Assembly: GCA_023974075.1 (NCBI GenBank)
Contig: JAMFTG010001374.1
Coordinates: 1 to 64,000, forward strand
Source of the DNA: Chaenocephalus aceratus
Lineage: Eukaryota > Chordata > Actinopteri > Perciformes > Channichthyidae
Reading direction: 5' to 3'
Length of the DNA: 64,000 nucleotides
Shown piece after piece: positions 5,729 to 49,442 of this stretch. A program made the translations under genes and the position numbers. Below the pieces are notes generated by a model. The model was not told the origin of the DNA, made no database searches, and worked only from the letters and a program-made list of their open reading frames with translations. Position 1 is the first letter of the stretch. Each line of letters opens with the position of its first letter.

Positions 5729-6737
5729 TAAGGCGCGAAAACCCCACACAATAGCGGAGGAACTGCTGCTCCCTGCTGCGGTGGATCTGTGTGAGGTGAT
5801 GGTGGGGAAAGATGCGGCTGCCAAATTGAGAAGTGTAGCTCTGTCCAATGACACCATCAGACGACGAATTGAGGACATGTCTGCTGATATCAAATCACAG
5901 CTGCTGGAAAGACTGAGAGGGTCTAAATTGGCGGTTCAATTGGATGAGTCCACTGATGAGTCCGGCTCTGCGCAGCTCATCGCGCTGGTTCGCTACCCGT
6001 GGGAAGGAAGGATTCAGGAAGATTTTTTATTTTGTCAAGAGTTGACGGGGCGAGCAACAGGTGAGGAGATGTTCAATGTTATAGATATGTTCATGCAGAC
6101 TGGCAATGTGAGTTGGGAGAATTGCATTGCGATTTGCACGGATGGGGCAGCTGCCATGACCGGACGCAAGAGTGGGGTGGTTGCTCGTGCCAAGGAGCGC
6201 AATCCAATGATGATAGCTACCCACTGCATGCTGCACAGGCAGGCTCTGGCGTCAACATCGTTGAGTCCTGAGCTACAGTCCGTTCTCAGCACGGTGGTAT
6301 CTGTGGTCAACCACATCGAGTGTAAGCCACAGTCCCGTTTATTCGGCCAGCTCTGCAGGGAGATGGGTGCAGGACAGGACACCCTGCTGTTCCATTCGGA
6401 GGTGCGTTGGCTCTCCCGTGGAAAAGCGCTACAGCGGGAGTACGAACTGCGCTCAGAGCTGTGTGAGTTCATCCAGAATGACAAGCCAACCACTGCAGCA
6501 CTCTTCTCGGACCCCGAGTGGATCGCACAGCTCGCCTACCTCGCAGATGTGTTCAACTTATTGAACGATCTCAGTTTGTCCGTTCAAGGCAGATATGCCT
6601 CTCTCCTGGAGGTAAGCGACAAACTCCAGGCATTCTGTGCCAACACAGCGACCTGGAGAAGGCAGGTGCAAAATGGCATTACAGACATGTTCCCCCAACT
6701 CACAGAGTTTCACACAACTAAGACTCTAGAAGGGTAA

Positions 6738-6890
6738 CAAAGAGGCTACGTCAGATTATTCCAAGGGACATACATTCAAATCAAGTCCATTTGTATTTAT
6801 ATAGCCCAAAATCACAAATCACAATGAGGGGGTCCTTGGTGTGTTCTCTATCTTGTAAGGGGTCCTTGGTGTGTTCTCTATCTTGTAAGG
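6738..6890. repeat. hAT distal remnant with 30-bp tandem repeat that served as target
   Basis: After the transposase stop there is a common fish motif (ATTTATATAGCCCAAAATCA, near 6793), then two 30-bp copies at 6829-6858 and 6859-6888 of a unit beginning GGGGTCCTTGGTGTGTTCTC. A further copy resumes at 26885 beyond the YR array. The YR element therefore interrupted a 30-bp tandem repeat, leaving an intact reference copy of the target. Confidence 0.85.
6884..6890. other. Left attachment junction of YR array
   Basis: TGTAAGG is preceded by target sequence CTATCT and followed by element sequence CAAATG. An unoccupied target copy lies 30 bp upstream at 6854-6860, followed by GGTCCTTGG. Confidence 0.78.
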
Positions 6891-7345
6891 CAAATGTCAG
6901 CCTTAGAGACGGAGGTACCGTGGAACTTGCCCTTCAGATGTACGCATGTCCGCTCAATGGAAATGCGATGTCAACCTCCGATGTCAAGTACCTGTCAGCA
7001 ACTGGACCGACTATGGGTGCCGATGGGCGGACGATAAAGCACCGCAAAATACACCCCCTTCAAGTGTTGCCAGGGGCACGAGAATACCCTCCATGGAGGG
7101 TGGGTGCTGCTGCTGTGAAAGAGGCCGACTATGGGTGCCGATGAGCGGACGATAAAGAACCACAAAATACACCTCTTTTCTGACTCATCAGGGGCATTAA
7201 GTTCTGGAGGGTGTGAACATCTGGGTTTAGTCCGTTGGGGAGTGCTTAATTCCGGGGTTCGGGGGTCTCATGTTATGGAAGTATGGATGATTCTCGAAAA
7301 ACGGCTAAGTGCCAACGGGGGAGGGTGAAAGTCCTGTATACCCTG
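6891..7345. other. Left-end module, unit 1
   Basis: This single-copy terminal segment begins CAAATGTCAGCCTTAG. It holds two copies of GACTATGGGTGCCGAT followed by a GGACGATAAA motif (about 7010 and 7127), related to the 120-bp repeats downstream of the gene, and AAACGGCTAAGTGCCAACGG near 7303. I see no long conserved coding region. Confidence 0.65.
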
Positions 7346-8530
7346 AGTAATCTTCCCCGGCTTTCAGACACTTATTCCTGGGTAACAAAGTCACCCTGCT
7401 CGGGTCGTCAAATGTGAATGAAATGGACAGATTCCTGTACATTTCAATCACTTTTGATGGGAGTCGTGAGGTGTGTTTGAAAGGGCCATATCTTCCTTAA
7501 ATTCACATCAATCATACCCAGCTTTCACACACTAATTGCTGGGTAATAAAGCCATGTGTACCCTGCATTTAAAGTAATCTTACCCAGCTTTCAGACACTA
7601 ATTCCTGGGTAACAAAGTCACCCTGGACCGGTCATCAAATGTGATTGAAATGGACAGATTCCTGTACATTTCATGCATTTTTAATGGGAGTCATCAGGTG
7701 TGGATGAAATGGCCATATCTTGCTTAAATTCACATCAAACTTACCCAGCTTTCACACACTAATTGCTGGGTAATAGAGCCATGTGTACCCTGCATTTAAA
7801 GTAATCTTACCCAGCTTTCAGACACTAATTCCTGGGTAACAAAGTCACCCTGGACCGGTCATCAAATGTGATTGAAATGGACAGATTCCTGTACATTTCA
7901 TGCATTTTTAATGGGAGTCATCAGGTGTGGATGAAATGGCCATATCTTGCTTAAATTCACATCAAACTTACCCAGCTTTCACACACTAATTGCTGGGTAA
8001 TAGAGCCATGTGTACCCTGCATTTAAAGTAATCTTACCCAGCTTTCAGACACTAATTCCTGGGTAACAAAGTCACCCTGGACCGGTCATCAAATGTGATT
8101 GAAATGGACAGATTCCTGTACATTTCATGCATTTTTAATGGGAGTCATCAGGTGTGGATGAAATGGCCATATCTTGCTTAAATTCACATCAAACTTACCC
8201 AGCTTTCACACACTAATTGCTGGGTAATAGAGCCATGTGTACCCTGCATTTAAAGTAATCTTACCCAGCTTTCAGACACTAATTCCTGGGTAACAAAGTC
8301 ACCCTGGACCGGTCATCAAATGTGATTGAAATGGACAGATTCCTGTACATTTCATGCATTTTTAATGGGGTCGTCGAATGTGGATGAAATGGACAGATTC
8401 CTGTACATTTCATGCATTTTTAATGGGGTCGTCGAATGTGATTGAAATGGACAGATTCCTGTACATTTCATGCATTTTTAATGGGGTCGTCGAATGTGAT
8501 TGAAATGGACAGATATTGGGAGTCGTCAGT
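7346..8530. repeat. 236-bp satellite array, unit 1 left arm
   Basis: Repeats are spaced about 236-237 bp (7740, 7977, 8213). Each contains two related half-motifs: ACCCAGCTTTCACACACTAA and ACCCAGCTTTCAGACACTAA. The right edge breaks into short repeats ending in a ATTTTTAATGGGGTCGTCGA motif. Confidence 0.88.
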
Positions 8531-9024
8531 ATATGGAGCTTAACCCATAATTCCCGGAGGTTCCAGGCCGAATTTGGAAGCTCATAGGCGGCCTGCCATG
8601 CGTCCCCACCCGTGGAAAGCAAAAAAAAGTAAAGAAAACGGTCAATTATATGTTAAAATAATCAAAAATGAAGTTTTTGAAAATTCTGTAAAAACGGCTA
8701 AGTGCCAACGGGGGAGGGGGTCAAGTCTTCGGCGCTTCGGGACGAAGCCCCGGAGACTTTTCCACTCCCCCGTTGCAATTTACAACGGAGAGGGGAAACC
8801 AGAGCTCCCCTCCTCCGTCCAAAAAATTCATTCATCTTTTCCAAGCTACTATCTGCACGAAATCGGAAACCCGGTTTTTGAGAGCACTTAGAAAAAAACG
8901 AGCTATTTTCACATGATGGGGAAATCATGGAGGAATGTATCCGCCTCAGGAGCACTTTGGATCGGATGAAATTGTTGCCAAGAGGACCCCCAATCCTGGT
9001 TCTCACAAAACTTTAAGTTTTCAA
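8531..9024. other. Non-repetitive spacer, unit 1
   Basis: This is single copy within the unit and conserved at 19817-20290 in unit 2. It includes a A-rich stretch, a copy of CGGCTAAGTGCCAACGGGGG at 8697, and the complementary-looking CTTCGGCGCTTCGGGACGAAG near 8729 (written here only in part as a GC-rich fold candidate). No gene is recognised. Confidence 0.4.
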
Positions 9025-9552
9025 ATTGGTGTCTAGAGGAATGCAAGGGGAGTTGTCAGGGGACTCTACCCGCCTCAAGGGGCACTATTTTGGGATACAT
9101 TTTATCCATTTTCACCCTTTTCTATGGTTCTTCCAAAAAGTTAACTTATACTTTTTCTGACTCTGGAGGAAGGTAGGGGAGTTGTCAGGGGACTCTACCC
9201 GCCTTATGGAACACTATTTTCGGATACAATTTATCCATTTTCACCCTTTTCTATGGTTCTTCCAAAAAGTTAACTTATACTTTTTCTGACTCTGGAGGAA
9301 GGTAGGGGAGTTGTCAGGGGACTCTACCCGCCTTATGGAACACTATTTTCGGATACAATTTATCCATTTTCACCCTTTTCTATGGTTCTTCCAAAAAGTT
9401 AACTTATACTTTTTCTGACTCTGGAGGAAGGTAGGGGAGTTGTCAGGGGACTCTACCCGCCTTATGGAACACTATTTTCGGATACAATTTATCCATTTTC
9501 ACCCTTTTGTATGGTTCTTCCAAAAAGTTAACTTATACTTTTTCTGACTCTG
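9025..9552. repeat. 129-bp repeats, four copies, unit 1
   Basis: Copies contain GGGGACTCTACCCGCCT and GTTAACTTATACTTTTTCTG. The period is 129 bp (anchor positions 9073, 9202, 9331 and 9460). Three copies occur in unit 2 (20300-20702). Confidence 0.87.
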
Positions 9553-10530
9553 GCCAGCAGATGAAAACACCCGCCTCTCCACCCCTTCCGAGGGACGAGG
9601 GAACCGTGCGGGGGTCTGCTGGAGGCTACTGCCGGGTGCTCCGTCCTGCGCCTCACCGGGACCCTGACTCCAGCACAGTGTGGCGGCCTCGCCCTGGCCG
9701 TCCACCGTGCGCCCTCTGGGTACCTGACTCCCCTGACTCCCCTGCCTCCTCCGGGAGCAGGTGAGAGGGGTTCAATGCCTCCCCGGAGGATGCTGTTACC
9801 CCGGCAACCCGCCAGCAGATGGAAACACCCGCCTCTCCACCTCTTCCGAGGGAACCGCGCGGGGGTCTGCTGGAGGCTACTGCCGGGTGCTCCGTCCTGC
9901 GCCTCACCGGGACCCTGACTCCAGCGCGGTGTGGCGGCCTCGCCCTGGCCGTCCACCGTGCGCCCTCTGGGTACCTGACTCCCCTGACTCCCCTGCCTCC
10001 TCCGGGAGCAGGTGAGAGGGGTTCAATGCCTCCCCGGAGGATGCTGTTACCCCGGCAACCCGCCAGCAGATGGAAACACCCGCCTCTCCACCTCTTCCGA
10101 GGGAACCGCGCGGGGGTCTGCTGGAGGCTACTGCCGGGTGCTCCGTCCTGCGCCTCACCGGGACCCTGACTCCAGCGCGGTGTGGCGGCCTCGCCCTGGC
10201 CGTCCACCGTGCGCCCTCTGGGTACCTGACTCCCCTGACTCCCCTGCCTCCTCCGGGAGCAGGTGAGAGGGGTTCAATGCCTCCCCGGAGGATGCTGTTA
10301 CCCCGGCAACCCGCAAGCAGATGGAAACACCCGCCTCTCCACCTCTTCCGAGGGAACCGCGCGGGGGTCTGCTGGAGGCTACTGCCGGGTGCTCCGTCCT
10401 GCGCCTCACCGGGACCCTGACTCCAGCGCGGTGTGGCGGCCTCGCCCTGGCCGTCCACCGTGCGCCCTCTGGGTACCTGACTCCCCTGACTCCCCTGCCT
10501 CCTCCGGGAGCAGGTGAGAGGGGTTCAATG
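9553..10530. repeat. 251-bp GC-rich repeats, four copies, unit 1
   Basis: Copies start CCAGCAGATG at 9553 and 9812, and the corresponding points at 10063 and 10314. Each has CTCCGGGAGCAG followed by GTGAGAGG, a good 5' splice site context, and most have an RFX X-box. Position just before the YR gene suggests a repeated promoter or enhancer, by analogy with amplified spacer promoters; that role is inference. Long open frames across it are repeat artefacts. Confidence 0.85.
9795..10310. promoter_or_regulatory. Three RFX X-box palindromes, unit 1
   Basis: GTTACCCCGGCAAC at 9795-9808, 10046-10059 and 10297-10310 fits the consensus GTNRCC-N2-RGYAAC exactly. RFX proteins bind such sites, including in ciliary and immune gene promoters. 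They are spaced 251 bp apart, one per repeat, with none after the last repeat. Use in transcription is inferred. Confidence 0.6.
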
Positions 10531-10813
10531 CCTCCGTCCCCCTGGGGGACGGATTGCCCGGAGGGTACTGTTATCCCCACGTTGTCGTACCCGAAACTGT
10601 CGGGTATCCTTTGGGAGAACCAGACTCTGGAGGAACGTGAGGGGAGATTACAGGGATCTCTGCCCGCCTAACAAGTGCCTAAATGGGACACCGCACCATG
10701 ATGCAAATGAAAACAAACACCGGTTTGAAAATAAGCTGAGTGCATCTTTCGTGAGTCTTTTCACGCTTCCTTCTTTTTTACCCACGATTCTGGTGACATT
10801 TCCCGGTACCGAA

Positions 10814-12954
10814 ATGCTCAAGAATACAGGTCGGATGGCGGTCCGTTGTCCGATCTGTAATAGTTCCTACCGTGCCCTGAGCAAGCACCTGCAGAGGCGC
10901 CATGGTGTGCGTAACTTGGTTGAAAGAAAAATTCTGCTGTTGTTGGCCAACGGACGGACCAACATTAGGCTCCATCCCTGTACCATTCTGGGATGCGAGT
11001 ACCGGGGCACAAGGCTGGATCACCACTTGGCCAGAGACCATGTTGAGCTGGCCCGGGAGGAACTACATGTGGTTCGAAATAAACTGAAAATGACAGTGGC
11101 CAAGAAGGAGCTTTATGAACTCCGAATGACAAACCCCACCATAGAAATGATTACCGCTTGGGCTGTTGACATGGTGGCAGACGACGATATACTGTCACAA
11201 CCTCCACCCTTGTCCCCGCTGAATGAATGTGACAACCCGGACTGCAAAGAATGGAGGCTGGAGGCAAACGCAGTGAGGGCTCAGCGGGACATATATGCTG
11301 CTGAGGTGAAATCCCTGCGCTGCAAGTTGCAGCAGAGGATAAAGCACAAGCGACAGAGGATGGATCAGCAGGCCGGGGACATGCCCGCGTTCGATGGGGA
11401 GGAACGAGAGCGGGTCATTCTGAAGAAACGACCCCGAACAGAGTCGACACCAACGAGGCTGTCCAAGTCGAAAGGTCCCTCCTGCAGCAAGTCTCCCATT
11501 CCCGCCTGCAGCGAGTCCCCCACTGGCTCTCACACACATTCATCCAGCTCCTCAGAGCCTGCATCCATGCATACCGAGGCCTCGTCAACCTCCCCTCCCA
11601 TCCATTCCCCCTGGTTCCGGGGCAGGGGCCGGGGAAATATAATGCGGGACATCACATTCCCACGGGTCATGGGTAAGTGTGTTGGCTATGTGACACATGC
11701 AGTTTCTGTAACACACGATGTGTTGTCATTAAAGTACTGTTTATATTTCACAGAGGAGTATCTTCAAGGATACCGGGAGCATTATGCAGGTATCGACCCA
11801 CCAGTGAGGCTCCAGGAAAACACAGTTTCCAAACTGAGCAGAGTGAAGTCGTTCCTAAGTTTCATGGCTCACGGGTTCAATCGCCTGTCTGACTGGCTCT
11901 TTTTGAGGGATCTCAAGAGGATACGCGGGTGGTCCCGGAGCCTGATGAAGTCAAGCCTTCAGGTCACGACCTCCGACTTCTACATCAAGAATATATCACA
12001 CTTTCTCAAGTACATGGCCGACACACCATGCAAGGGGAGCAGGCTCAGCCAAACCGACATGATTTTAATCAAACGGGAAGTAGTTGCCATCTTGAAGTCC
12101 CTGAAGAGAAAAGTACTTATCCACCAGATGCAAGTGAAGCGTGACAAGATGGAAGGTCTGCCGAGCCACAACGACCTAATGACATGCTTGACTTCGACCA
12201 CCACTCGCATCCCTCAGCTCCTGGATGTGATGGCCAGCAATCCGACTACCGCAACCCGGACCCTGCTCTATGGGTATATGACTCTTCATTGGAGCTGCAT
12301 TTACGGCCATCGTCCGGGGGTCTACTCCAACATGACCAACGCCGAGGTCCGCAAGGCGGATACAACTGGCACTGCCTTCGGCTACCTGGTTCATGTGAGT
12401 GCTATTAATCAATGCATTTATTCTGGCAGTTATATGCATGATTGACATTGTATTGACACTCTCTAACTCTGTCATAACAGGTAAGCAACCACAAGACGGC
12501 CAACGCGTTCGGGGAAGCGCAGCTGTACCTCACCGTAGAAGAATTTGGATGGATGAAGAGGTGGCTGGAAATCAAGGGTACGCTGACCTGCACCCAGAGC
12601 CGTTACTTTCTATACACAGAGGGGAAGAACCCGTTCAGGAAGCTTGCCTACTCCCTGAGGTTGGCATGGGCTGATGTGGGGCTCCACGGTCCCATTAACT
12701 TCACCGACCTCCGCACAGTCCACGCCGATAATGCGAAGAGGTTTCAAGACAAAGGCAACCGCCAACGAGTGAGTGATTTCATGTGTCGCAACACTGCAAC
12801 TGCGGACAAATTTTACGCGAATAATCCTTCTTTGAAGGAGGCTGCGGACATTCGGTTGCTCTTCACAGAGTCACTGCAAGCAGCGGCGGTGGCATCGACA
12901 GCAGTAGCAGCGGGAAATGAAGACACTTTTGCGGGTATTGACATTCGACAGTGA
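10814..12954 (+). CDS. Zinc-finger tyrosine recombinase of unit 1 (three exons)
   Basis: Exons 10814-11672, 11754-12394 and 12481-12954 give 657 residues. I start at the ATG at 10814 because unit 2 conserves it, while the upstream frame runs into promoter repeats. The order is: C2H2-like fingers CPICNSSY...HLQRRH (about residues 12-31) and CTILGC...HLARDH; a coiled coil after NECDNPDC; a Ser-rich linker with KKRPR; a helical core-binding region; and a YR catalytic domain. Candidate catalytic residues are Arg473 (GHRPGV), Lys505 (NHKT), Arg578 (FTDLRT) and Tyr612 (DKFY). Residue 603, His in unit 2, is Arg here. The usual HxxR His appears as Thr. An extra T near 12944 truncates a tail of about 70 residues present in unit 2. 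Predicted to integrate and excise its element. It is Crypton-like but not of the DUF3504 type as far as I can see. Confidence 0.8.
11673..11753 (+). other. 81-bp intron with open reading frame
   Basis: Donor GTAAGT and acceptor TTTCACAG. The length is a multiple of three and has no in-frame stop in unit 1, so retention would add 27 residues without breaking the frame. Splicing joins ATG-G to AG-GAG and gives a Glu codon. Confidence 0.65.
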
Positions 12955-13218
12955 CATCTCTGGAGAGGAGCACAGCCCGGCTCCCTACCAAGACTCCCTA
13001 CCAAGACATGTCAACGCTTGGCGAGCGACGAGGGACCAGTCACTGGCCGAACACAGCCCCTCAGACATGGGTGAAGAGAGGGTGCCATACTCTGCCCCAA
13101 CTTCACCCACTTTTGCCAGTGATCAACTTGTAAATATGCAGTGTGTTGTTGTAATCAGTCCCCTTGTAAATACTTTATATCCTGTGTGAATGTATTTATT
13201 ACTGTCAATATTACTGTA

Positions 13219-13224
13219 AATAAA
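13219..13224 (+). terminator. Poly(A) signal, unit 1 YR gene
   Basis: AATAAA lies about 265 bases past the unit 1 stop, or 32 bases after the stop used by the unit 2 frame. Confidence 0.75.
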
Positions 13225-13439
13225 GTTTGTTAAAATTACTAAGTCTTCTGTTTTTAAAGCCCACTATGGGTTTTTTTCCTTTAAGATCTCCAGGGGCACG
13301 ATATTCTGGTTCTGGTGGTAGCATGGAGGTGTTTAGTCCGAGTGAGGAGTGCTCAAGTGTGGGATGATTTGTAAGGTAGAAGAGGGTAAAAAAAGTTAAA
13401 GTGTGAACCTCCAGCAGGGCAGGTGGTGCTGTGAAGAAG

Positions 13440-13905
13440 GCCGACTATGGGTGCCGATGGGCGGACGGTAAAGCACCGCAAAGTAGACCCCCTTTAAGTG
13501 TTGCCAGGGGCACGAGAAAAATCCTCCACTGGAGGGTGGGTGGTGCTGCTGTGAAGAAGGCCGACTATGGGTGCCGATAGGCGGACGGTAAAGCACCGCA
13601 AAGTAGACCCCCTTTAAGTGTTGCCAGGGGCACGAGAAAAATCCTCCACTTGAGGGTGGGTGGTGCTGCTGTGAAGAAGGCCGACTATGGGTGCCGATGG
13701 GCGGACGATAGAGCACCGCAAAGTAGACCCCCTTTAAGTGTTGCCAGGGGCACGAGAAAAATCCTCCATGGAGGTTGGATGCTGCTGCTGTGAAGAAGGC
13801 CGACTATGGGTGCCGATGGGCGGACGATTAAGCACCGCAAAATACACCCCCCTTTAAGATTCCCAGGGGCACGAGATTCTTGAGGGTGTGATCATCTTGG
13901 TTTAG
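13440..13905. repeat. 120-bp repeats, four copies, unit 1 right arm
   Basis: Each starts GCCGACTATGGGTGCCGATG (13440, 13560, 13680, 13799) and contains TGTTGCCAGGGGCACGAG. The same motifs occur in the left-end module in the same orientation, so the two arms share direct repeats. Confidence 0.87.
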
Positions 13906-14099
13906 TCCGTGGGGGAGTGCTTAAGTTCGGGGGCCCGGGGACCCAAGCGGCCACAGAGAGGTGCTTTTTCCCCGGGGTATTTCATGGAAGTCTGAAATAA
14001 CCTGTTTGCTCATGTCAGGGAGAGATGCTGGGGCTGCTGTGTCCGTGTTTTGGGGGTCTTGGAGCGGCCCCGAAGAGGTGGCTTTGTCGGTGTACATAT

Positions 14100-14877
14100 T
14101 GGTTAAGAAAGCCACCCTTGACGGGTCGTCAAATGTGGATGAAATGGACAGAGTCCTGTACATTTCAATCACTTTGTATGGGAGTCGTGAGGTGTGGATG
14201 AAATGGCCATATCTTCCTTAAATTCACATCAAACTTACCCATCTTTCACACACTAATTGCTGGGTAATACAGCCATGTGCACACTGCATTTAAAGTAATC
14301 TTACCCAGCTTTCAGACACTAATTCCTGGGGAAGAAAGTCACCCTGGACGGGTCATCAAATGTGATTGAAATGGACAGATTCCTGTACATTTCAATCACT
14401 TTTGATGGGAGTATTCAGGTGTGGATGAAATGACCATATCTCCCTTAAATTCACATCAAACTTACCCAGCTTTCACACACTAATTCATGGGTAATGAAGC
14501 CATGTGTACCCAGTATTTAAAGTAATCTTACCCAGCTTTCAGACACTAATTCCTGGGTAAGAAATGTGAATGAAATGGACAGATTCCTGTACATTTCAAT
14601 CACTTTTAATGGGAGTCATCAGGTGTGGATGAAATGGCCATATCTTCCTTAAATTCACATCAAACTTACCCAGCTTTCACACACTAATTCATGGGTAATG
14701 AAGCCATGTGTACCCAGTATTTAAAGTAATCTTACCCAGCTTTCAGACACTAATTCCTGGGGAAGAAAGTCACCCATGACGGGTGATCAAATGTGGATGA
14801 AATGTACAGATTCCTGTACATTTCAATCACTTTTGATGGGAGTCGTGAGGTGTGGATGAAATGGCCAGTTGAATCCG
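14100..14877. repeat. Right-arm satellite, unit 1
   Basis: These are copies of the same satellite family as the left arm, with variant half-motifs such as CACACTAATTCATGGGTAAT. Confidence 0.82.
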
Positions 14878-15051
14878 ATTTTGAGCACTCTTTTCCCCGC
14901 ATAAACTAGTCACCGTTAAACACTTATTTTGTTGATGTCTATATAACCGACTTCCCGCTATGCATTGCGGTCGGTTATATGGACCCTGGCACTAGGCAGA
15001 CCGCGGCCGGTAGTAAATGTCCAACCATTGTACCCTCTGGTCCCTAGGGTA
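14878..15051. other. Right-end module copy 1, internal
   Basis: It begins GTTGAATCCGATTTTGAGCA and ends GGTCCCTAGGGTA. It contains a hairpin ATATAACCGAC...GTCGGTTATAT (11-bp stem, 14941-14951 with 14970-14980) and the 8-bp palindrome CCCTAGGG next to the junction. Here it is followed by TGTATGGATG, left-arm sequence, instead of TGTAAGG. Confidence 0.78.
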
Positions 15052-15055
15052 TGTA

Positions 15056-17031
15056 TGGATGATTCTCGAAAAAACGGCTAAGTGCCAACGGGGGAGGGTG
15101 AAAGTCCTGTATACCCTGTGTAATCTTCCCCGACTTTCAGACACTTATTCCTGGGTAACAAAGTCACCCTGCTCGGGTCGTCAAATGTGAATGAAATGGA
15201 CAGATTCCTGTACATTTCAATCACTTTTGATGGGAGTCGTGAGGTGTGTTTTGAAAGGGCCATATCTCCCTTAAATTCACAGCAAACTTACCCATCTTTC
15301 ACACACTAACTGCTGGGTAATACAGCCATGTGTACCCTGTGTTTAAAGTAATCTTCCCCGACTTTCAGACACTTATTCCTGGGTAACAAAGTCACCCTGC
15401 TCGGGTCGTCAAATGTGGATGAAATGTACAGATTCCTGTACATTTCAATCACTTTTGATGGGAGTCGTGAGGTGTGGGATGAAATGGCCATATCTTCCTT
15501 AAATTCACATCAAACTTACCCAGCTTTCACACCTAACTCATGGGTAATACAGCCATGTGCACCATGCATTTAAAGTAATCTTCCCCGACTTTAAGACACT
15601 TATTCCTGGGTAATAAAGCCGTGTACATCTCCCTGTTTGAAAGGGCCATATCTCCCTTAAATTCACAGCAAACTTACCCATCTTTCACACACTAATTGCT
15701 GGGTAATACAGCCATGTGTACCCTGTGTTTAAAGTAATCTTCCCCAGCTTTCAGACACTAATTCCTGGGGAAGAAGTCACCCTGCTCGGGTCGTCAAATG
15801 TGGATGAAATGGACAGATTCCTGTACATTTCAATCACTTTTGATGGGAGTCGTGAGGTGTGGATGAAATGGCCATATCTTCCTTAAATTCACATCAAACT
15901 TACCCAGCTTTCACACACTAACTCATGGGTAATACAGCCATGTGCACCATGCATTTAAAGTAATCTTTCCCGACTTTAAGACACTTATTCCTGGGTAATA
16001 AAGCCGTGTACATCTCCCTGTTTGAAAGGGCCATATCTCCCTTAAATTCACAGCAAATTTACCCATCTTTCACACACTAATTGCTGGGTAATACAGCCAT
16101 GTGTACCCTGTGTTTAAAGTATTCTTCCCCAGCTTTCAGACACTAATTCCTGGGGAAGAAAGTCACCCTGCTCGGTCGTCAAATGTGGATGAAATGGACA
16201 GATTCCTGTACATTTCAATCACTTTTGATGGGAGTCGTGAGGTGTGGATGAAATGGCCATATCTTCCTTAAATTCACATCAAACTTACCCAGCTTTCACA
16301 CACTAACTCATGGGTAATACAGCCATGTGCACCATGCATTTAAAGTAATCTTTCCCGACTTTAAGACACTTATTCCTGGGTAATAAAGCCGTGTACATCT
16401 CCCTGTTTGAAAGGGCCATATCTCCCTTAAATTCACAGCAACTTACCCATCTTTCACACACTAATTGCTGGGTAATACAGCCATGTGTACCCTGTGTTTA
16501 AAGTAATCTTCCCCAGCTTTCAGACACTAATTCCTGGGGAAGAAAGTCACCCTGCTCGGGTCGTCAAATGTGGATGAAATGGACAGATTCCTGTACATTT
16601 CAATCACTTTTGATGGGAGTCGTGAGGTGTGGATGAAATGGCCATATCTTCCTTAAATTCACATCAAACTTACCCAGCTTTCACACACTAATTCATGGGT
16701 AATACAGCCATGTGCACCATGCATTTAAAGTAATCTTCCCCGACTTTAAGACACTTATTCCTGGGTAATAAAGCCGTGTACATCTCCCTGTTTGAAAGGG
16801 CCATATCTCCCTTAAATTCACAGCAAACTTACCCATCTTTCACACACTAATTGCTGGGTAATACAGCCATGTGTAACCTGTGTTTAAAGTAATCTTCCCC
16901 GACTTTCAGACACTTATTCCTGGGTAACAAAGTCACCCTGCTCGGGTCGTCAAATGGTGGATGAAATGTACAGATTCCTGTACATTTCAATCACTTTTGA
17001 TGGGAGTCGTGAGGTGTGGATGAAATGGCCA
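15056..17031. repeat. Partial YR element: left-arm satellite fused to right end, unit 1
   Basis: Starts with GGATGATTCTCG and the AAAACGGCTAAGTGCCAACG motif, as in the left arm from 7283, then about 1.9 kb of satellite leading directly to a second right-end module. The gene and all internal repeats are missing. It looks like an internally deleted copy. Confidence 0.7.
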
Positions 17032-17214
17032 GTTGAATCCGATTTTGAGCACTCTTTTCCCCGCATAAACTAGTCACCGTTAAACACTTATTTTGTTGAT
17101 GTCTATATAACCGACTTCCCGCTATGCATTGCGGTCGGTTATATGGACCCTGGCACTAGGCAGACCGCGGCCGGTAGTAATGTCCAACCATTGTACCCTC
17201 TGGTCCCTAGGGTA
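17032..17214. other. Right-end module copy 2, true end of unit 1
   Basis: Same module with the hairpin at 17105-17115 and 17134-17144, followed by the TGTAAGG junction. Confidence 0.8.
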
Positions 17215-17221
17215 TGTAAGG
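17215..17221. other. Unit-to-unit attachment junction
   Basis: TGTAAGG joins the right end of unit 1 (CCCTAGGGTA) directly to the left end of unit 2 (CAAATGTCAG). This represents the sequence expected at the closed joint of a circular form. Confidence 0.78.
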
Positions 17222-17680
17222 CAAATGTCAGCCTTAGAGACGGAGGTACCGTGGAACTTGCCCTTCAGAATGTACGCATGTCCGCTCAATGGAAATGCGA
17301 TGTCAACCTCCGATGTCAAGTACCTTCAGCGACTGGACCGACTATGGGTGCCGATGGCGGACGATAAAGCACCGCAAAATACACCCCCTTCAAGTGTTGC
17401 CAGGGGCACGAGAATACCCTCCATGGAGGGTGGGTGCTGCTGCTGTGAAAGAGGCCGACTATGGGTGCCGATGAGCGGACGATAAAGAACCACAAAATAC
17501 ACCTCTTTTCTGACTCACCAGGGGCATTAAGTTCTGGAGGGTGTGAACATCTGGGTTTAGTCCGTTGGGGAGTGCTTAATTCCGGGGTTCGGGGGTCTCA
17601 TGTTATGGAAGTATGGATGATTCTCGAAAAACGGCTAAGTGCCAACGGGGGAGGGTGAAAGTCCTGTATACCCTGAGTAA
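17222..17680. other. Left-end module, unit 2
   Basis: This is near-identical to the unit 1 left end, starting CAAATGTCAGCCTTAG at 17222, with a few single-base differences. Confidence 0.65.
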
Positions 17681-19816
17681 TCGTCCCCCGGCTTTCAGAC
17701 ACTTATTCCTGGGTAACAAAGTCACCCTGCTCGGTCGTCAAATGTGAATGAAATGGACAGATTCCTGTACATTTCAATCACTTTTGATGGGAGTCGTGAG
17801 GTGTGTTTGAAAGGGCCATATCTTCCTTAAATTCACATCAATCATACCCAGCTTTCACACACTAATTGTTGGGTAATAAAGCCATGTGTACCCTGCATTT
17901 AAAGTAATCTTACCCAGCTTTCAGACACTAATTCCAGGGTAACAAAGTCACCCTGGACCGGTCATCAAATGTGATTGAAATTGACAGATTCCTGTACATT
18001 TCATGCATTTTTATGGGAGTCATCAGGTGTGGATGAAATGGCCATATCTTGCTTAAATTCACATCAAACTTACCCAGCTGTCACACACTAATTGCTGGGT
18101 AATAGAGCCATGTGTACCCTGCATTTAAAGTAATCTTACCCAGCTTTCAGACACTAATTCCTGGGTAACAAAGTCACCCTGGACCGGTCATCAAATGTGA
18201 TTGAAATGGACAGATTCCTGTACATTTCATGCATTTTTAATGGGAGTCATCAGGTGTGGATGAAATGGCCATATCTTGCTTAAATTCACATCAAACTTAC
18301 CCAGCTTTCACACACTAATTGCTGGGTAATAGAGCCATGTGTACCTGCATTTAAAGTAATCTTACCCAGCTTTCAGACACTAATTCCTGGGTAACAAAGT
18401 CACCCTGGACCGGTCATCAAATGTGATTGAAATGGACAGATTCCTGTACATTTCATGCATTTTTAATGGGAGTCATCAGGTGTGGATGAAATGGCCATAT
18501 CTTGCTTAAATTCACATCAAACTTACCCAGCTGTCACACACTAATTGCTGGGTAATAGAGCCATGTGTACCCTGCATTTAAAGTAATCTTACCCAGCTTT
18601 CAGACACTAATTCCTGGGTAACAAAGTCACCCTGGAACCGGTCATCAAATGTGATTGAAATGGACAGATTCCTGTACATTTCATGCATTTTTAATGGGAG
18701 TCATCAGGTGTGGATGAAATGGCCATATCTTGCTTAAATTCACATCAAACTTACCCAGCTTTCACACACTAATTGCTGGGTAATAGAGCCATGTGTACCC
18801 TGCATTTAAAGTAATCTTACCCAGCTTTCAGACACTAATTCCTGGGTAACAAGTCACCCTGGACCGGTCATCAAATGTGATTGAAATGGACAGATTCCTG
18901 TACATTTCATGCATTTTTAATGGGAGTCATCAGGTGTGGATGAAATGGCCATATCTTGCTTAAATTCACATCAAACTTACCCAGCTTTCACACACTAATT
19001 GCTGGGTAATAGAGCCATGTGTACCCTGCATTTAAAGTAATCTTACCCAGCTTTCAGACACTAATTCCTGGGTAACAAAGTCACCCTGGACCGGTCATCA
19101 AATGTGATTGAAATGGACAGATTCCTGTACATTTCATGCATTTTTAATGGGAGTCATCAGGTGTGGATGAAATGGCCATATCTTGCTTAAATTCACATCA
19201 AACTTACCCAGCTTTCACACACTAATTGCTGGTAATAGAGCCATGTGTACCCTGCATTTAAAGTAATCTTACCCAGCTTTCAGACACTAATTCCTGGGTA
19301 ACAAAGTCACCCTGGACCGGTCATCAAATGTGATTGAAATGGACAGATTCCTGTACATTTCATGCATTTTTAATGGGAGTCATCAGGTGTGGATGAAATG
19401 GCCATATCTTGCTTAAATTCACATCAAACTTACCCAGCTTTCACACACTAATTGCTGGGTAATAGAGCCATGTGTACCCTGCATTTAAAGTAATCTTACC
19501 CAGCTTTCAGACACTAATTCCTGGGTAACAAAGTCACCCTGGACCGGTCATCAAATGTGATTGAAATGGACAGATTCCTGTACATTTCATGCATTTTTAA
19601 TGGGGTCGTCGAATGTGGATGAAATGGACATATTCCTGTACATTTCATGCATTTTTAATGGACATATTCCTGTACATTTCATGCATTTTTAATGTGGTCG
19701 TCGAATGTGATTGAAATGGACAGATTCCTGTACATTTCATGCATTTTTAATGGGGTCATCGAATGTGATTGAAATGGACAGATTCCTGTACATTTCATGC
19801 ATTTTTAATGGGAGTC
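17681..19816. repeat. 236-bp satellite array, unit 2 left arm
   Basis: Same family as 7346-8530 but roughly 1 kb longer, with about four more copies. Several single-base gaps lie in homopolymers. Confidence 0.88.
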
Positions 19817-20290
19817 GTCAGTATATGGAGCTTAACCCATAATTCCCGGAGGTTCCAGGCCGAATTTGGAAGCTCATAGGCGGCCTGCCATGCGTCCCCA
19901 CCCGTGGAAAGCAAAAAAAAGTAAAGAAAACGGTCAATTATATGTTAAAATAATCAAAAATGAAGTTTTTGAAAATTCTGTAAAAACGGGGGAGGGGGTC
20001 AGGTCTTCGGCGCTTCGGGACGAAGCCCCGGAGACTTTTCCACTCCCCCGTTGCAATTTACAACGGGAGGGGAAACCAGAGCTCCCCTCCTCCGTCCAAA
20101 AAATTCATTCATCTTTTCCAAGCTACCATCTGCACGAAATCGGAAACCCGGTTTTTGAGAGCACTTAGAAAAAAACGAGCTATTTTCACATGATGGGGAA
20201 ATCATGGAGGAATGTATCCGCCTCAGGAGCACTTTGGATCGGATGAAATTGTTGCCAAGAGGACCCCCAATCCTGGTTCTCACAAAACTT
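19817..20290. other. Non-repetitive spacer, unit 2
   Basis: Counterpart of 8531-9024, with a short internal deletion near 19986 that removes the GGCTAAGTGCCAA motif. No gene is recognised. Confidence 0.4.
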
Positions 20291-20299
20291 TAAGTTTTC

Positions 20300-20702
20300 A
20301 AACTGGTGTCTGGAGGAATGCAAGGGGAGTTGTCAGGGGACTCTACCCGCCTCAAGGGGCACTATTTTGGGATACATTTTATCCATTTTCACCCTTTTTT
20401 ATGGTTCTTTCCAAAAAGTTAACTTATACTTTTTCTGACTCTGGAGGAAGGTAGGGGAGTTGTCAGGGGACTCTACCCGCCTTATGGAACACTATTTTGG
20501 GATACATTTTATCCATTTTCACCCTTTTCTATGGTTCTTCCAAAAAGTTAACTTATACTTTTTCTGACTCTGGAGGAAGGTAGGGGAGTTGTCAGGGGAC
20601 TCTACCCGCCTTATGGAACACTATTTTCGGATACAATTTATCCATTTTCACCCTTTTCTATGGTTCTTCCAAAAAGTTAACTTATACTTTTTCTGACTCT
20701 GG
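20300..20702. repeat. 129-bp repeats, three copies, unit 2
   Basis: Same unit as 9025-9552, with one copy fewer. Confidence 0.85.
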
Positions 20703-21915
20703 CCAGCAGATGAAAACACCCGCCTCTCCACCCCTTCCGAGGGACGAGGGAACCGTGCGGGGGTCTGCTGGAGGCTACTGCCGGGTGCTCCGTCCTGCGC
20801 CTCACCGGGACCCTGACTCCAGCGCGGTGTGGCGGCCTCGCCCTGGCCGTCCACCCTCTGGGTACCTGACTCCCCTGCCTCCTCCGGGAGCAGGTGAGAG
20901 GGGTTCAATGCCTCCCCGGAGGATGCTGTTACCCCGGCAACCCGCCAGCAGATGGAAACACCCCGCCTCTCCACCTCTTCCGAGGGAACCGCGCGGGGGT
21001 CTGCTGGAGGCTACTGCCGGGTGCTCCGTCCTGCGCCTCACCGGGACCCTGACTCCAGCGCGGTGTGGCGGCCTCGCCCTGGCCGTCCACCGTGCGCCCT
21101 CTGGGTACCTGACTCCCCTGACTCCCCTGCCTCCTCCGGGAGCAGGTGAGAGGGGTTCAATGCCTCCCCGGAGGATGCTGTTACCCCGGCAACCCGCCAG
21201 CAGATGGAAACACCCGCCTCTCCACCTCTTCCGAGGGAACCGCGCGGGGGTCTGCTGGAGGCTACTGCCGGGTGCTCCGTCCTGCGCCTCACCGGGACCC
21301 TGACTCCAGCGCGGTGTGGCGGCCTCGCCCTGGCCGTCCACCGTGCGCCCTCTGGGTACCTGACTCCCCTGACTCCCCTGCCTCCTCTGGGAGCAGGTGA
21401 GAGGGGTTCAATGCCTCCCCGGAGGATGCTGTTACCCCGGCAACCCGCCAGCAGATGGAAACACCCGCCTCTCCACCTCTTCCGAGGGAACCGCGCGGGG
21501 GTCTGCTGGAGGCTACTGCCGGGTGCTCCGTCCTGCGCCTCACCGGGACCCTGACTCCAGCGCGGTGTGGCGGCCTCGCCCTGGCCGTCCACCGTGCGCC
21601 CTCTGGGTACCTGACTCCCCTGACTCCCCTGCCTCCTCCGGGAGCAGGTGAGAGGGGGTTCAATGCCTCCCCGGAGGATGCTGTTACCCCGGCAACCCGC
21701 CAGCAGATGGAAACACCCGCCTCTCCACCTCTTCCGAGGGAACCGCGCGGGGGTCTGCTGGAGGCTACTGCCGAGTGCTCCGTCCTGCGCCTCACCGGGA
21801 CCCTGACTCCAGCGCGGTGTGGCGGCCTCGCCCTGGCCGTCCACCGTGCGCCCTCTGGGTACCTGACTCCCCTGACTCCCCTGCCTCCTCCGGGAGCAGG
21901 TGAGAGGGGTTCAAT
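20703..21915. repeat. 251-bp GC-rich repeats, five copies, unit 2
   Basis: Copies start at 20703, 20945, 21196, 21447 and 21699. The first is shortened. X-boxes are present in the first four. Confidence 0.85.
20928..21696. promoter_or_regulatory. Four RFX X-box palindromes, unit 2
   Basis: GTTACCCCGGCAAC at 20928-20941, 21180-21193, 21431-21444 and 21683-21696, all perfect matches to the X-box consensus. Confidence 0.6.
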
Positions 21916-22198
21916 GCCTCCGTCCCCCTGGGGGACGGATCGCCCGGAGGGTACTGTTATCCCCACGTTGTCGTACCCGAAACTGTCGGGTATCCTTTGG
22001 GAGAACCAGACTCTGGAGGAACGTGAGGGGAGATTACAGGGATCTCTGCCCGCCTAACGAGTGCCTAAATGGGACACCGCACCATGATGCAAATGAAAAC
22101 AAACACCGGTTTGAAAATAAGCTGAGTGCATCTTTCGTGAGTCTTTTCACGCTTCCTTCTTTTTACCCACGATTCTGGTGACATTTCCCGGTACCGAA

Positions 22199-24570
22199 AT
22201 GCTCAAGAATACAGGTCGGATGGCGGTCCGTTGTCCGATCTGTAATAGTTCCTACCGTGCCCTGAGCAAGCACCTGCAGAGGCGCCATGGTGTGCGTAAC
22301 TTGGTTGAAAGAAAAATTCTGCTGTTGTTGGCCAACGGACGGACCAACATTAGGCTCCATCCCTGTACCATTCTGGGATGCGAGTACCGGGCACAAGGCT
22401 GGATCGCCACTTGGCCAGAGACCATGTTGAGCTGGCCCGGGAGGAACTACATGCGGTTCGAAATAAACTGAAAATGACAGTGGCCAAGAAGGAGTTTTAT
22501 GAACTCCGAATGACAAACCCACCATAGAAATGATTACCGCTTGGGCTGTTGACATGGTGGGCAGACGACGATATACTGTCACAAACCTCCACCCTTGTCC
22601 CCGGTGAATGAATGTGACAACCCGGACTGCAAAGAATGGAGGCTGGAGGCAAACGCAGTGAGGGCTCAGCGGGACATATATGCTGCTGAGGTGAAATCCC
22701 TGCGCTGCAAGTTGCAGCAGAGGATAAAGCACAAGCGACAGAGGATGGATCAGCGGGCCGGGGACATGCCCGCGTTCGATGGGGAGGAATGAGAGCGGGT
22801 CATTCTGAAGAAACGACCCCGAACAGAGTCGACACCAACGAGGCTGTCCAAGTCGAAAGGTCCCTCCTGCAGCAAGTCTCCCATTCCCGCCTGCAGCGAG
22901 TCCCCCACTGGCTCTCACACACATTCATCCAGCTCCTCAGAGCCTGCATCCATGCATACCGAGGCCTCGTCAACCTCCCCTCCCATCCATTCCCCCTGGT
23001 TCGGGGCAGGGGCCGGGAAATATAATGCGGGACCTCACATTCCCACGGGTCATGGTAAGTTGTGTTGGCTATGTGACACATGCAGTTTCTGTAACACACG
23101 ATGTGTTGTCATTAAAGTACTGTTTTATATTTCACAGAGGAGTATCTTCAAGGATACCGGGAGCATTATGCAGGTATCGACCCACCAGTGAGGCTCCAGG
23201 AAACACAGTTTCCAAACTGAGCAGAGTGAAGTCGTTCTAAGTTTCATGGCTCACGGGTTCAATCGCCTTGTCTGACTGGCTCTTTTGAGGGATCTCAAGA
23301 GGATACGTGGGTGGTCCCGGAGCCTGATGAAGTCAGCCTTCAGGTCACGACCTCCGACTTCTACATCAAGAATATATCACACTTTCTCAAGTACATGGCC
23401 GACACACCATGCAAGGGGAGCAGGCTCAGCCAAACCGACATGATTTTAATCAAACGGGAAGTAGTTGCCATCTTGAAGTCCCTGAAGAGAGAAAGTACTT
23501 ATCCACCAGATGCAAGTGAAGCGTGACAAGATGGAAGGTCTGCCGAGCCACAACGACCTAATGACATGCTTGACTTCGACCACCACTCGCATCCCTCAGC
23601 TCCTGGATGTGATGGCCAGCAATCCGACTACCGCAACCCGGACCCTGCTCTATGGGTATATGACTCTTCATTGGAGCTGCATTTACGGCCATCGTCCGGG
23701 GGTCTACTCCAACATGACCAACGCCGAGGTCCGAAAGGCGGATACAACTGGCACTGCCTTCGGCTACCTGGTTCATGTGAGTGCTATTAATCAATGCATT
23801 TATTCTGGCAGTTATATGCATGATTGACATTGTATTGACACTCTCTAACTCTGTCATAACAGGTAAGCAACCACAAGACGGCCAACGCGTTCGGGGAAGC
23901 GCAGCTGTACCTCACCGTAGAAGAATTTGGATGGATGAAGAGGTGGCTGGAAATCAAGGGTACGCTGACCTGCACCCAGAGCCGTTACTTTCTATACACA
24001 GAGGGGAAGAACCCGTTCAGGAAGCTTGCCTACTCCCTGAGGTTGGCATGGGCTGATGTGGGGCTCCACGGTCCCATTAACTTCACCGACCTCCGCACAG
24101 TCCACGCCGATAATGCGAAGAGGTTTCAAGACAAAGGCAACCGCCAACGAGTGAGTGATTTCATGTGTCACAACACTGCAACTGCGGACAAATTTTACGC
24201 GAATAATCCTTCTTTGAAGGAGGCTGCGGACATTCGGTTGCTCTTCACAGAGTCACTGCAAGCAGCGGCGGCGGCATCGACAGCAGTAGCAGCGGGAAAT
24301 GAAGACACTTTTGCGGGTATTGACATCGACAGTGACATCTCTGGAGAGGAGCACAGCCCGGCTCCCTACCAAGACTCCCTACCAAGACATGTCAACGCTT
24401 GGCGAGCGACGAGGGACCAGTCACTGGCCGAACACAGCCCCTCAGACATGGGTGAAGAGAGGGTGCCATACTCTGCCCCAACTTCACCCACTTTTGCCAG
24501 TGATCAACTTGTAAATATGCAGTGTGTTGTTGTAATCAGTCCCCTTGTAAATACTTTATATCCTGTGTGA
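22199..24570 (+). pseudogene. Tyrosine recombinase gene of unit 2, frame broken as assembled
   Basis: Homologous throughout to the unit 1 gene. Relative to it there are one-base changes in short homopolymers near 22390, 22521, 22559, 22584, 23001, 23018, 23055, 23201, 23236, 23270, 23285, 23333 and 23490, and a CGA to TGA stop at 22789-22791. From about 23510 the frame is clean through the catalytic Arg, Lys, Arg and Tyr motifs, and His is kept in MCHNTATADKFY. The C-terminal tail of about 70 residues is intact, ending at 24570. The concentration of changes in homopolymers suggests sequencing error as an alternative to decay. Confidence 0.8.
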
Positions 24571-24599
24571 ATGTATTTATTACTGTCAATATTACTGTA

Positions 24600-24605
24600 A
24601 ATAAA
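24600..24605 (+). terminator. Poly(A) signal, unit 2 YR gene
   Basis: AATAAA lies 30 bases after the unit 2 stop codon, in the same context as 13219-13224. Confidence 0.75.
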
Positions 24606-24820
24606 GTTTGTTAAAATTACTAAGTCTTCTGTTTTTAAAGCCCACTATGGGTTTTTTTCCTTTAAGATCTCCAGGGGCACGATATTCTGGTTCTGGTGGT
24701 AGCATGGAGGTGTTTAGTCCGAGTGAGGAGTGCTCAAGTGTGGGATGATTTGTAAGGTAGAAGAGGGTAAAAAAAGTTAAAGTGTGAACCTCCAGCAGGG
24801 CAGGTGGTGCTGTGAAGAAG

Positions 24821-25020
24821 GCCGACTATGGGTGCCGATGGGCGGACGGTAAAGCACCGCAAAGTAGACCCCCTTTAAGTGTTGCCAGGGGCACGAGAAA
24901 AATCCTCCATGGAGGGTGGGTGGTGCTGCTGTGAAGAAGGCCGACTATGGGTGCCGATGGGCGGACGATAAGCACCGCAAAATACACCCCCCTTTAAGAT
25001 TCCCAGGGGCACGAGATTCT
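24821..25020. repeat. 120-bp repeats, two copies, unit 2
   Basis: Starts GCCGACTATGGGTGCCGATG at 24821 and 24940; two copies fewer than unit 1. Followed by a segment (about 25080-25320) with a near duplication absent from unit 1. Confidence 0.83.
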
Positions 25021-25329
25021 TGAGGGTGTGATCATCTTGGTTTAGTCCGTGGGGGAGTGCTTAAGTTCGGGGGCCCGGGGACCCAAGGTGCGCGAGGTTC
25101 TGGAAGTACTTATGTCAGGGAGAGATCCTGGAGCTCCTTAGTCCGTGTTTTGGGGGTCTTGGAGCGGCCACAGAGAGGTGCTTTTCCCCGGGGTATTTCA
25201 TGGAAGTCTGAAATAACCTGTTTGCTCATGTCAGGGAGAGATGCTGGGGCTGCTGCGTCCGTGTTTTGGGGGTCTTGGAGCGGCCCCGAAGAGGTGGCTT
25301 TGTCGGTGTACAATATTGGTTAAGAAAGC

Positions 25330-26080
25330 CACCCTTGACGGGTCGTCAAATGTGGATGAAATGGACAGAGTCCTGTACATTTCAATCACTTGTGTATGGG
25401 AGTCGTGAGGTGTGGATGAAATGGCCATATCTTCCTTAAATTCACATCAAACTTACCCATCTTTCACACACTAATTGCTGGGTAACAGCCATGTGCACAC
25501 TGCATTTAAAGTAATCTTACCCAGCTTTCAGACACTAATTCCTGGGGAAGAAAGTCACCCTGGACGGGTCATCAAATGTGATTGAAATGGACAGATTCCT
25601 GTACATTTCAATCACTTTTGATGGGAGTATTCAGGTGTGGATGAAATGACCATATCCCTTAAATTCACATCAAACTTACCCAGCTTTCACACACTAATTC
25701 ATGGGTAATGAAGCCATGTGTACCCAGTATTTAAAGTAATCTTACCCAGCTTTCAGACACTAATTCCTGGGTAAGAAATGTGAATGAAATGGACAGATTC
25801 CTGTACATTTCAATCACTTTTAATGGGAGTCATCAGGTGTGGATGAAATGGCCATATCTACCTTAAATTCACATCAAACTTACCCAGCTTTCACACACTA
25901 ATTCATGGGTAATGAAGCCATGTGTACCCAGTATTTAAAGTAATCTTACCCAGCTTTCAGACACTAATTCCTGGGAAGAAAGTCACCCATGACGGGTCAT
26001 CAAATGTGGATGAAATGTACAGATTCCTGTACATTTCAATCACTTTTAATGGGAGTCGTGAGGTGTGGATGAAATGGCCA
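25330..26080. repeat. Right-arm satellite, unit 2
   Basis: Counterpart of 14100-14877. Confidence 0.8.
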
Positions 26081-26264
26081 GTTGAATCCGATTTTGAGCA
26101 CTCTTTTCCCCGCATAAACTAGTCACCGTTAAACACTTATTTTGTTGATGTCTATATAACCGACTTCCCGCTATGCATTGCGGTCGGTTATATGGACCCT
26201 GGCACTAGAAAGACCGCGGCCGGTAGTAAATGTCCAACCATTGTACCCTCTGGTCCCTAGGGTA
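26081..26264. other. Right-end module copy 3, internal
   Basis: Hairpin at 26154-26164 and 26183-26193. As with copy 1 it is followed by TGTATGGATG. Confidence 0.78.
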
Positions 26265-26268
26265 TGTA

Positions 26269-26697
26269 TGGATGATTCTCGAAAAACGGCTAAGTGCCAA
26301 CGGGGGAGGGTGAAAGTCCTGTATACCCTGAGTAATCTTCCCCGACTTTCAGACACTTTTCCTGGGTAACAAAGTCACCCTGCTCGGGTCGTCAAATGTG
26401 AATGAAATGGACAGATCCTGTACATTTCAATCACTTTTGATGGGAGTCGTGAGGTGTGTTTGAAAGGGCCATATCTCCCTTAAATTCACAGCAAACTTAC
26501 CCATCTTTCACACACTAATTGCGGGTAATACAGCCATGTGTACCCTGTGTTTAAAGTAATCTTCCCCGACTTTCAGACACTTATTCCTGGGTAACAAAGT
26601 CACCCTGCTCGGGTCGTCAAATGTGGATGAAATGTACAGATTCCTGTACATTTCAATCACTTTTGATGGGAGTCGTGAGGTGTGGATGAAATGGCCA
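26269..26697. repeat. Short partial YR element, unit 2
   Basis: Same fusion of left-arm sequence to satellite as 15056-17031 but only about 0.43 kb, indicating loss of several satellite copies. Confidence 0.68.
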
Positions 26698-26880
26698 GTT
26701 GAATCCGATTTTGAGCACTCTTTTCCCCGCATAAACTAGTCACCGTTAAAACACTTATTTTGTGATGTCTATATAACCGACTTCCCGCTATGCATTGCGG
26801 TCGGTTATATGGACCCTGGCACTAGGCAGCCGCGGCCGGTAGTAAATGTCCAACCATTGTACCCTCTGGTCCCTAGGGTA
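26698..26880. other. Right-end module copy 4, true end of array
   Basis: Hairpin at 26771-26781 and 26800-26810, ending CCCTAGGGTA before the right TGTAAGG junction. Confidence 0.8.
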
Positions 26881-26887
26881 TGTAAGG
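26881..26887. other. Right attachment junction of YR array
   Basis: TGTAAGG is preceded by the element end CCCTAGGGTA and followed by target sequence GGTCCTTGG. The next target repeat has another TGTAAGG at 26911-26917. Confidence 0.78.
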
Positions 26888-26949
26888 GGTCCTTGGTGTG
26901 TTCTCTATCTTGTAAGGGTCCTTGGCTGAAAAACAATTGAGAACCTCTG

Positions 26950-28909: not shown

Positions 28910-49442
<20,533 letters not shown>

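Follow-up and report, generated by a model that had tools for sequence, protein, structure and literature searches.

Tandem copies of a tyrosine-recombinase transposon in an icefish minisatellite, with junctions that point to a single inherited strand exchange

In this work we have analysed a stretch of 64,000 nucleotides (the window; positions 1 to 64,000 of contig JAMFTG010001374.1, forward strand) from the icefish Chaenocephalus aceratus (assembly GCA_023974075.1), which contains two copies of an element encoding a tyrosine recombinase (YR). The copies, each of about 10 kb, lie head to tail on the plus strand at 6886-26882, within a host minisatellite of 30-bp units. This repeat is perfect (Tandem Repeats Finder, 6829-6890, 2.1 copies, 100% match), and a further unit follows past the right border. 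Reading from the left, there is an unoccupied unit, that is, an empty site (6831-6860), with TGTAAGG at 6854-6860 and then GGTCC, followed by the host part of the occupied unit (6861-6885). The last six bases of the latter (ATCTTG, 6880-6885) are the host spacer retained at the left junction; by spacer we mean the 6-bp segment between the two arms of the recombination site described below. Unit 1 of the element extends from 6886 to 17216 (TAAGGCAAATG to CCCTAGGGTATG) and unit 2 from 17217 to 26882, and each ends with the element's own spacer, GGTATG (17211-17216 and 26877-26882). The host side to the right of the array (26883-26917) consists of TAAGG, which completes the split repeat (26883-26887), and one whole 30-bp unit (26888-26917). 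An earlier note on this DNA had reported TGTAAGG with its flanks at 6884 and 26881 as well as the empty repeat, and both are indeed present. It had also proposed the sequence that a circular form would have at its joint, and exactly this sequence, CCCTAGGGTA-TGTAAGG-CAAATG, forms the bond between units 1 and 2 (17205-17227, plus strand). As a bare 7-mer, TGTAAGG occurs seven times on the plus strand of the window and not at all on the minus strand, with about four per strand expected (64000/4^7), so that the word by itself is no proof; what counts is where it stands, namely at the left and right edges of the array and between the two units. The note had interpreted the array as one large Crypton-like element. 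It is large and appears to work as a Crypton does, but it is two units joined at the core and not a single element.

The core-to-core distances of the two units are 10,324 and 9,659 bp. Several tandem arrays lie within the element (units of 227, 129, 251, 120 and 385 bp in unit 1, the 227-bp array being located at 7346-8392 on the plus strand), and no terminal inverted repeats of the DDE type were seen by eye when the outer 60 bases of both ends were set side by side. The recombinase gene is the only recognisable gene of each unit, and a YR as the sole enzyme is also a trait of Cryptons. In unit 1 it occupies 10814-12954 on the plus strand, with exons at 10814-11672, 11754-12394 and 12481-12954 and GT-AG introns, and encodes 657 residues with two N-terminal zinc-finger-like motifs; AATAAA follows at 13219-13224. 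The gene of unit 2 (22199-24570, plus strand) has the same layout, and its frame is disrupted by indels and a stop. A protein of Pseudochaenichthys georgianus (P0001, from a cluster of 71 members) is 98% identical over the catalytic part and has the same exon joins. Other relatives come from Gymnodraco (one cluster of 36), Lates, Scophthalmus, Alosa, Hoplias, Misgurnus, Pagothenia and, as a partial protein, C. aceratus itself. Neither the recombinase nor its relatives gave a significant match in sequence searches of Pfam, NCBIfam or PDB. The AlphaFold model of one relative, P0002 (mean predicted local distance difference test score, pLDDT, of 58, better in the catalytic part), has the predicted catalytic fold of YRs and type IB topoisomerases, and its structure matches at ranks 1-44 of 50 were tyrosine recombinases, type IB topoisomerases and YR-like regulators (3 rows). 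The residues R489, K521, R594, H619 and Y628 are invariant in seven of eight compared proteins, the eighth (P0023) lacking the R489 region, and in all eight the HxxR box reads TxxR, threonine replacing histidine. The assignment of the enzyme to the tyrosine recombinases is well supported by the modelled fold. In the unit 1 copy an arginine stands in place of the second histidine of the relatives; given this and the broken frame of unit 2, we do not assume that either copy in the window is active. Among viral contigs no relative of the element was confirmed; a single exact 17-base match of CCCTAGGGTATGTAAGG (L009) was judged to be due to chance, given the size of the collection.

Could the element be a retrotransposon of the DIRS or Ngaro type whose reverse transcriptase has been lost in these copies? 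A YR, a circular intermediate and the lack of a long target duplication also occur in that class. Ten further open frames of 120 residues or more in the two units, situated within or across the 251-bp minisatellite or running antisense to the recombinase gene, gave no significant Pfam match and no match to a reverse transcriptase, however, and ten relatives of the recombinase likewise had no reverse transcriptase and no Pfam match of the Starship captain type. In addition, the gene retains its introns, which suggests that its spliced mRNA did not serve as the template for these copies. We regard this origin as extremely improbable.

To read the ends of the element independently of the core, the genome of C. 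aceratus (1.064 Gb, 3032 contigs) was searched with end queries and with patterns containing free positions. A left-end query without the core listed 40 copies, the best 30 of which were examined. For the right end 30 loci were examined, with 11 further listed matches outside this set; three of the 30 (L046, L051, L070) were centred on an internal relic, which leaves 27 true right ends, four in tandem joints and 23 against host DNA. As the earlier note had expected, copies elsewhere have unrelated flanks adjoining TGTAAGG or a short variant of it, and empty sites hold one copy. Eleven of the 30 left ends were tandem joints, nine with the same family and two with a related one (its right end being 80% identical in L015 and 81-90% identical in pieces in L026). 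Across the genome there are 18 exact tandem joints on 14 contigs (pattern with seven free positions; control 0), all of them with TGTAAGG; this pattern passes over junctions with altered bases (AAAATG in L043 and L065, AAATG in L054) and the AGTATG variant of the spacer. Contig C578 contains a multi-unit array, with five exact joints at 18364-59665 of a 126-kb contig. Over 360 bp, 29 of the 30 left ends were identical, which points to recent movement, though the set consists of the best matches.

These data also bear on the question of whether the tandem pair arose by recombination at the core at all, or is a segmental duplication or an assembly artefact of a single insertion. The two 10-kb units are similar, repeats are hard to assemble, and 16 of 30 indel positions in their longest aligned block lie in homopolymers. 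Two other loci (C1941:4892 and C708:31659) share the same 400-base left flank, and at about 11 kb one of them continues with a tandem joint and the other with host DNA; array length may differ between haplotypes here. However, the units in the window, while 95-99% identical in aligned blocks, differ in minisatellite copy number and in sequence, the exact joints are spread over the 14 contigs, joints with a related family exist, and a duplication would not place its breakpoint at the core every time. A duplication or artefact is therefore very unlikely.

The two ends of the element behave differently. All 30 examined left ends have TGTAAGG (26) or AGTAAGG (4) ahead of CAAATG, and all 27 true right ends have TG directly after CCCTAGGGTA. 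Past this TG, 12 of the 23 right junctions with host DNA diverge from TGTAAGG (these are not fully independent cases, since L045/L058 and L055/L069 have common flanks), whereas none of the 30 left junctions does. At the left the element contributes GTAAGG and at the right the target contributes TAAGG, so that only TG, and strictly a single G, is common to both junctions in the family as a whole. The earlier proposal that TGTAAGG is the core or overlap does not hold at this level: the word combines the end of a 6-bp spacer ending in TG with a recombinase arm, and its reading as a 7-bp duplicated core is ruled out by the ends found with the core-free queries. In wider counts, 76 right ends continuing with TAAGG, the only ones which that pattern covers, have the element's own spacer without exception (GGTATG in 46, AGTATG in 30); at least 21 of them are tandem joints and uninformative on this point, so that at most 55 are informative. 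The left-end pattern, which covers A or T before the spacer and an exact TAAGGCAAATGTCAGCC, found 101 ends. Among the 100 listed there are 56 distinct spacers, all ending in G; 94 listed ends have varied host spacers and six an element-like one, including one joint with the related family. Another of the six (L035, C16:40516101) combines the element-like spacer GGTATG with a host-like arm, and may have arisen by chance or, as a rare outcome, through the other strand exchange.

Which side supplies what can be read directly from a long interspersed nuclear element (LINE) that has been hit repeatedly, its spacer CCAGAG being present at 11 of the 100 listed left ends. Five of eight examined empty copies of this LINE read ACTAACCAG-AGTTAGG-AAAAGGGACC, two have ACTTAGG and one a small deletion. 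Occupied left ends read ACTAACCAGA|GTAAGGCAAATG (L029, L031), and occupied right ends, in other copies, read GGTATG|TTAGGAAAAGGGACC (L055, L069). The comparison means that what precedes the G at the left end comes from the host, as does what follows the G at the right end. The minisatellite itself also displays the empty target, as TGTAAGG in the window and as TGTAAGT at C16:43365841, and it is only one target among others, as the family also inserts in the LINE and elsewhere. Taken together, the earlier view of a tyrosine-recombinase element with a short defined site, visible empty and filled side by side, is supported.

From the unique sites, with tandem junctions and near-identical flanks left out, the target consensus is TCCTWA-NNNNWG|TWAGGGA, with 11 positions above 0.5 bit. 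The spacing of its arms was tested on 23 left and 21 right sites, also without L054, a tandem case, and L030, which has another right end close by. When the right-arm profile was run as its reverse complement over the left host flanks, it peaked at a spacer of 6 bp (z 6.2), with 7 bp second (z 4.0), and none of 3000 shuffles reached this peak at any spacing tested; the element's own right end likewise peaks at 6 bp. Two inverted arms with a spacer in the range of 6-8 bp are the anatomy of a YR core site, and the view that the target has this anatomy, with a 6-bp spacer, is well supported. A related observation is that, of the loci L005 and L044, one has a left flank that matches the other's right flank in reverse complement, with 92% identity over 390 bases. 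This implies that a repeat was hit in opposite orientations, and both sides together suggest a nearly palindromic target. Tyrosine recombinases cut at the edges of the 6-8-bp segment. Two cuts 6 bp apart are thus expected here, but essentially one join position was seen, at the right edge of the spacer.

A blunt double exchange at G|T, or one staggered by 1-2 bp, in which the inverted arms only guide binding, would account for junctions that fall between spacer base 5 and the position following the G and have only TG in common. Against this, the sites of known YRs consist, in the passages of PMC3212892 that describe them, of arms around a segment of 6-8 bp, and the inverted arms found here are 6 bp apart; we consider such an exchange quite improbable.

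We favour the view, at a probability of roughly 0.7, that the array consists of tandem copies of a recently active YR DNA transposon which moves through a circular intermediate and for which just one of the two possible strand exchanges is inherited. According to this model, the element would be excised or copied as a circle with the joint TCCCTAG-GGTATG-TAAGGCA (arm, 6-bp spacer, arm). The recombinase would recognise sites of the form TCCTWA-NNNNWG-TWAGGGA and join the circle to the target at the right edge of the spacer, leaving the host spacer at the left junction and the element spacer at the right one; it seems enough for the spacers to agree in their final one or two bases (TG, or at least G). 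The junction of a resident copy would again be a good target, and further circles, or a dimeric circle, could give head-to-tail arrays with the same joint throughout. The tandem structure, the joints, the anatomy of the site, the predominance of one crossover point and the YR-like fold of a model are plain observations; the circle, the one-strand mechanism and replicative copying are what we infer from them. YRs usually make two cuts 6-8 bp apart, and under this geometry a lone crossover point implies the inheritance of just one strand exchange.

Is it possible that integration is an ordinary two-strand YR reaction over the 6-bp spacer, and that mismatches in the spacer are invariably repaired one way, towards the host at the left junction and the element at the right? 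The site anatomy would be the same, and repair can in principle be directional. Repair would have to restore host sequence on the left (94 of 100 listed ends) and element sequence on the right (all 76 ends, with at most 55 informative), however, and the element spacer never varies as host DNA does, which makes this explanation unlikely. A stronger form of the favoured model, in which this vertebrate transposon uses a strictly one-strand YR exchange at a two-armed site with a 6-bp spacer, retains the spacer of its own and gains copies when the one-strand intermediate is replicated, is possible, but we put it forward only tentatively.

An internal relic junction, CCCTAGGGTATG|TATGGATGATTC, is present in both units (15030-15095 in unit 1 and 26243-26308 in unit 2, plus strand), where the right end is joined to the element's own interior. 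Its crossover (15053|15054 and 26266|26267) lies after AG|TATGG, and the equivalent target is at 7281|7282. The relic was found in 19 of the 30 right-end loci, within the stretch examined, and is therefore old in the family; as it obeys the same crossover rule, self-insertion has probably shaped the family. At C22:30660840-30662634 the distance between a left and a right end (L018/L059) is a mere 1.8 kb or so, which probably marks a short copy lacking the gene. As for the surroundings of the array, an open frame of 340 residues at 5715-6737 (plus strand), with DUF659 at E 0.094 as its only Pfam match, resembles transposases of the hAT/ZBED type, and the minisatellite that holds the YR pair may lie close to the end of this older transposon. 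An 895-residue open frame at 46043-48730 consists of a tandem repeat; large minisatellites of this sort are numerous in the window.

To our knowledge, the ways in which eukaryotic YR DNA transposons cut, form circles and gain copies are largely open. Well over a hundred junctions from one genome now locate the crossover at a single step, delimit a target of two arms with its spacer and indicate that the element spacer is not exchanged, so that a strand-level test of YR transposition becomes possible in a vertebrate system, with a candidate recombinase whose target preference can be read. The element may also explain some of the recent, near-identical, tandem-prone repeats in icefish genomes. 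We recognised no description of the family in the open literature, as judged by titles, the starts of abstracts and some passages and with Repbase left aside, and neither PMC10256766, on notothenioid genomes, nor PMC10522714, on C. aceratus, uses the word Crypton in its main text.

How does the element compare with known systems? With Cryptons (CryptonA), as portrayed in parts of PMC3212892, it shares a eukaryotic host, a YR as the recognisable enzyme and the absence of long terminal repeats, no terminal repeats having been found in animal Cryptons according to that source; short direct repeats at some insertions and a proposed circular intermediate are further likenesses. Unlike a Crypton, it is about 10 kb long and rich in minisatellites, has a spliced YR gene with two zinc-finger-like motifs, an inverted-arm target and tandem arrays, and shows no match to DUF3504 (PF12012), the Pfam family derived from animal Cryptons, which was absent from the Pfam matches of ten family members at E up to 10. 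The short direct repeats of Cryptons (4-6 bp in fungi) have a 7-bp counterpart in the window, and family-wide only TG or G; as direct repeats are not a family feature and no sequence link to Cryptons or DUF3504 was found, we do not file the element as a Crypton. CryptonV of cnidarians, likened here by its description in passages of PMC8869645 only, is a target-site-specific YR transposon with some families in microsatellites, whereas the present family also occupies the LINE and other sites. Starships of fungi are large and carry a YR, and the canonical target of the Hephaestus family, TTAC(N7)A in a table of PMC12153272, has the reverse complement T(N7)GTAA, a pattern that our target fits, with the T present in 16 of 23 left flanks. 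Since other Starships in the same table have other targets, this five-base likeness may be chance, and it is a lead rather than evidence of descent. In contrast to a Starship, with its captain at the 5' end and its cargo, the element has its gene some 3.9 kb into the unit, no cargo genes were recognised, and its target is otherwise longer.

As far as the junctions are concerned, the predominance of a single crossover point would agree with a one-strand exchange of the SE type. Integron cassettes (attI x attC), too, recombine by a single crossover beside a G, located where a simple inverted-arm site has its edge, and one strand is inherited. Unlike these cassettes, the present element has a eukaryotic host and carries its own recombinase. 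SE-6945 and SE-6283, in the portions of PMC9345347 and PMC10214605 that deal with them, resemble it in having YRs, a 6-bp spacer and a one-strand exchange inferred from junctions, but they are bacterial, with no inverted repeat detected at their targets, and the circle joints appear there in more than one type depending on location, as against the fixed element spacer here. The four SE core genes (intA-tfp-intB-srap) have no equivalent in our units, each of which has one YR gene and no other recognisable protein. If the exchange is strictly one-stranded and replicative, the icefish element would represent an animal equivalent of the recombination of integrons and SE elements, and would answer how a recombinase that only cuts and rejoins can raise its own copy number.

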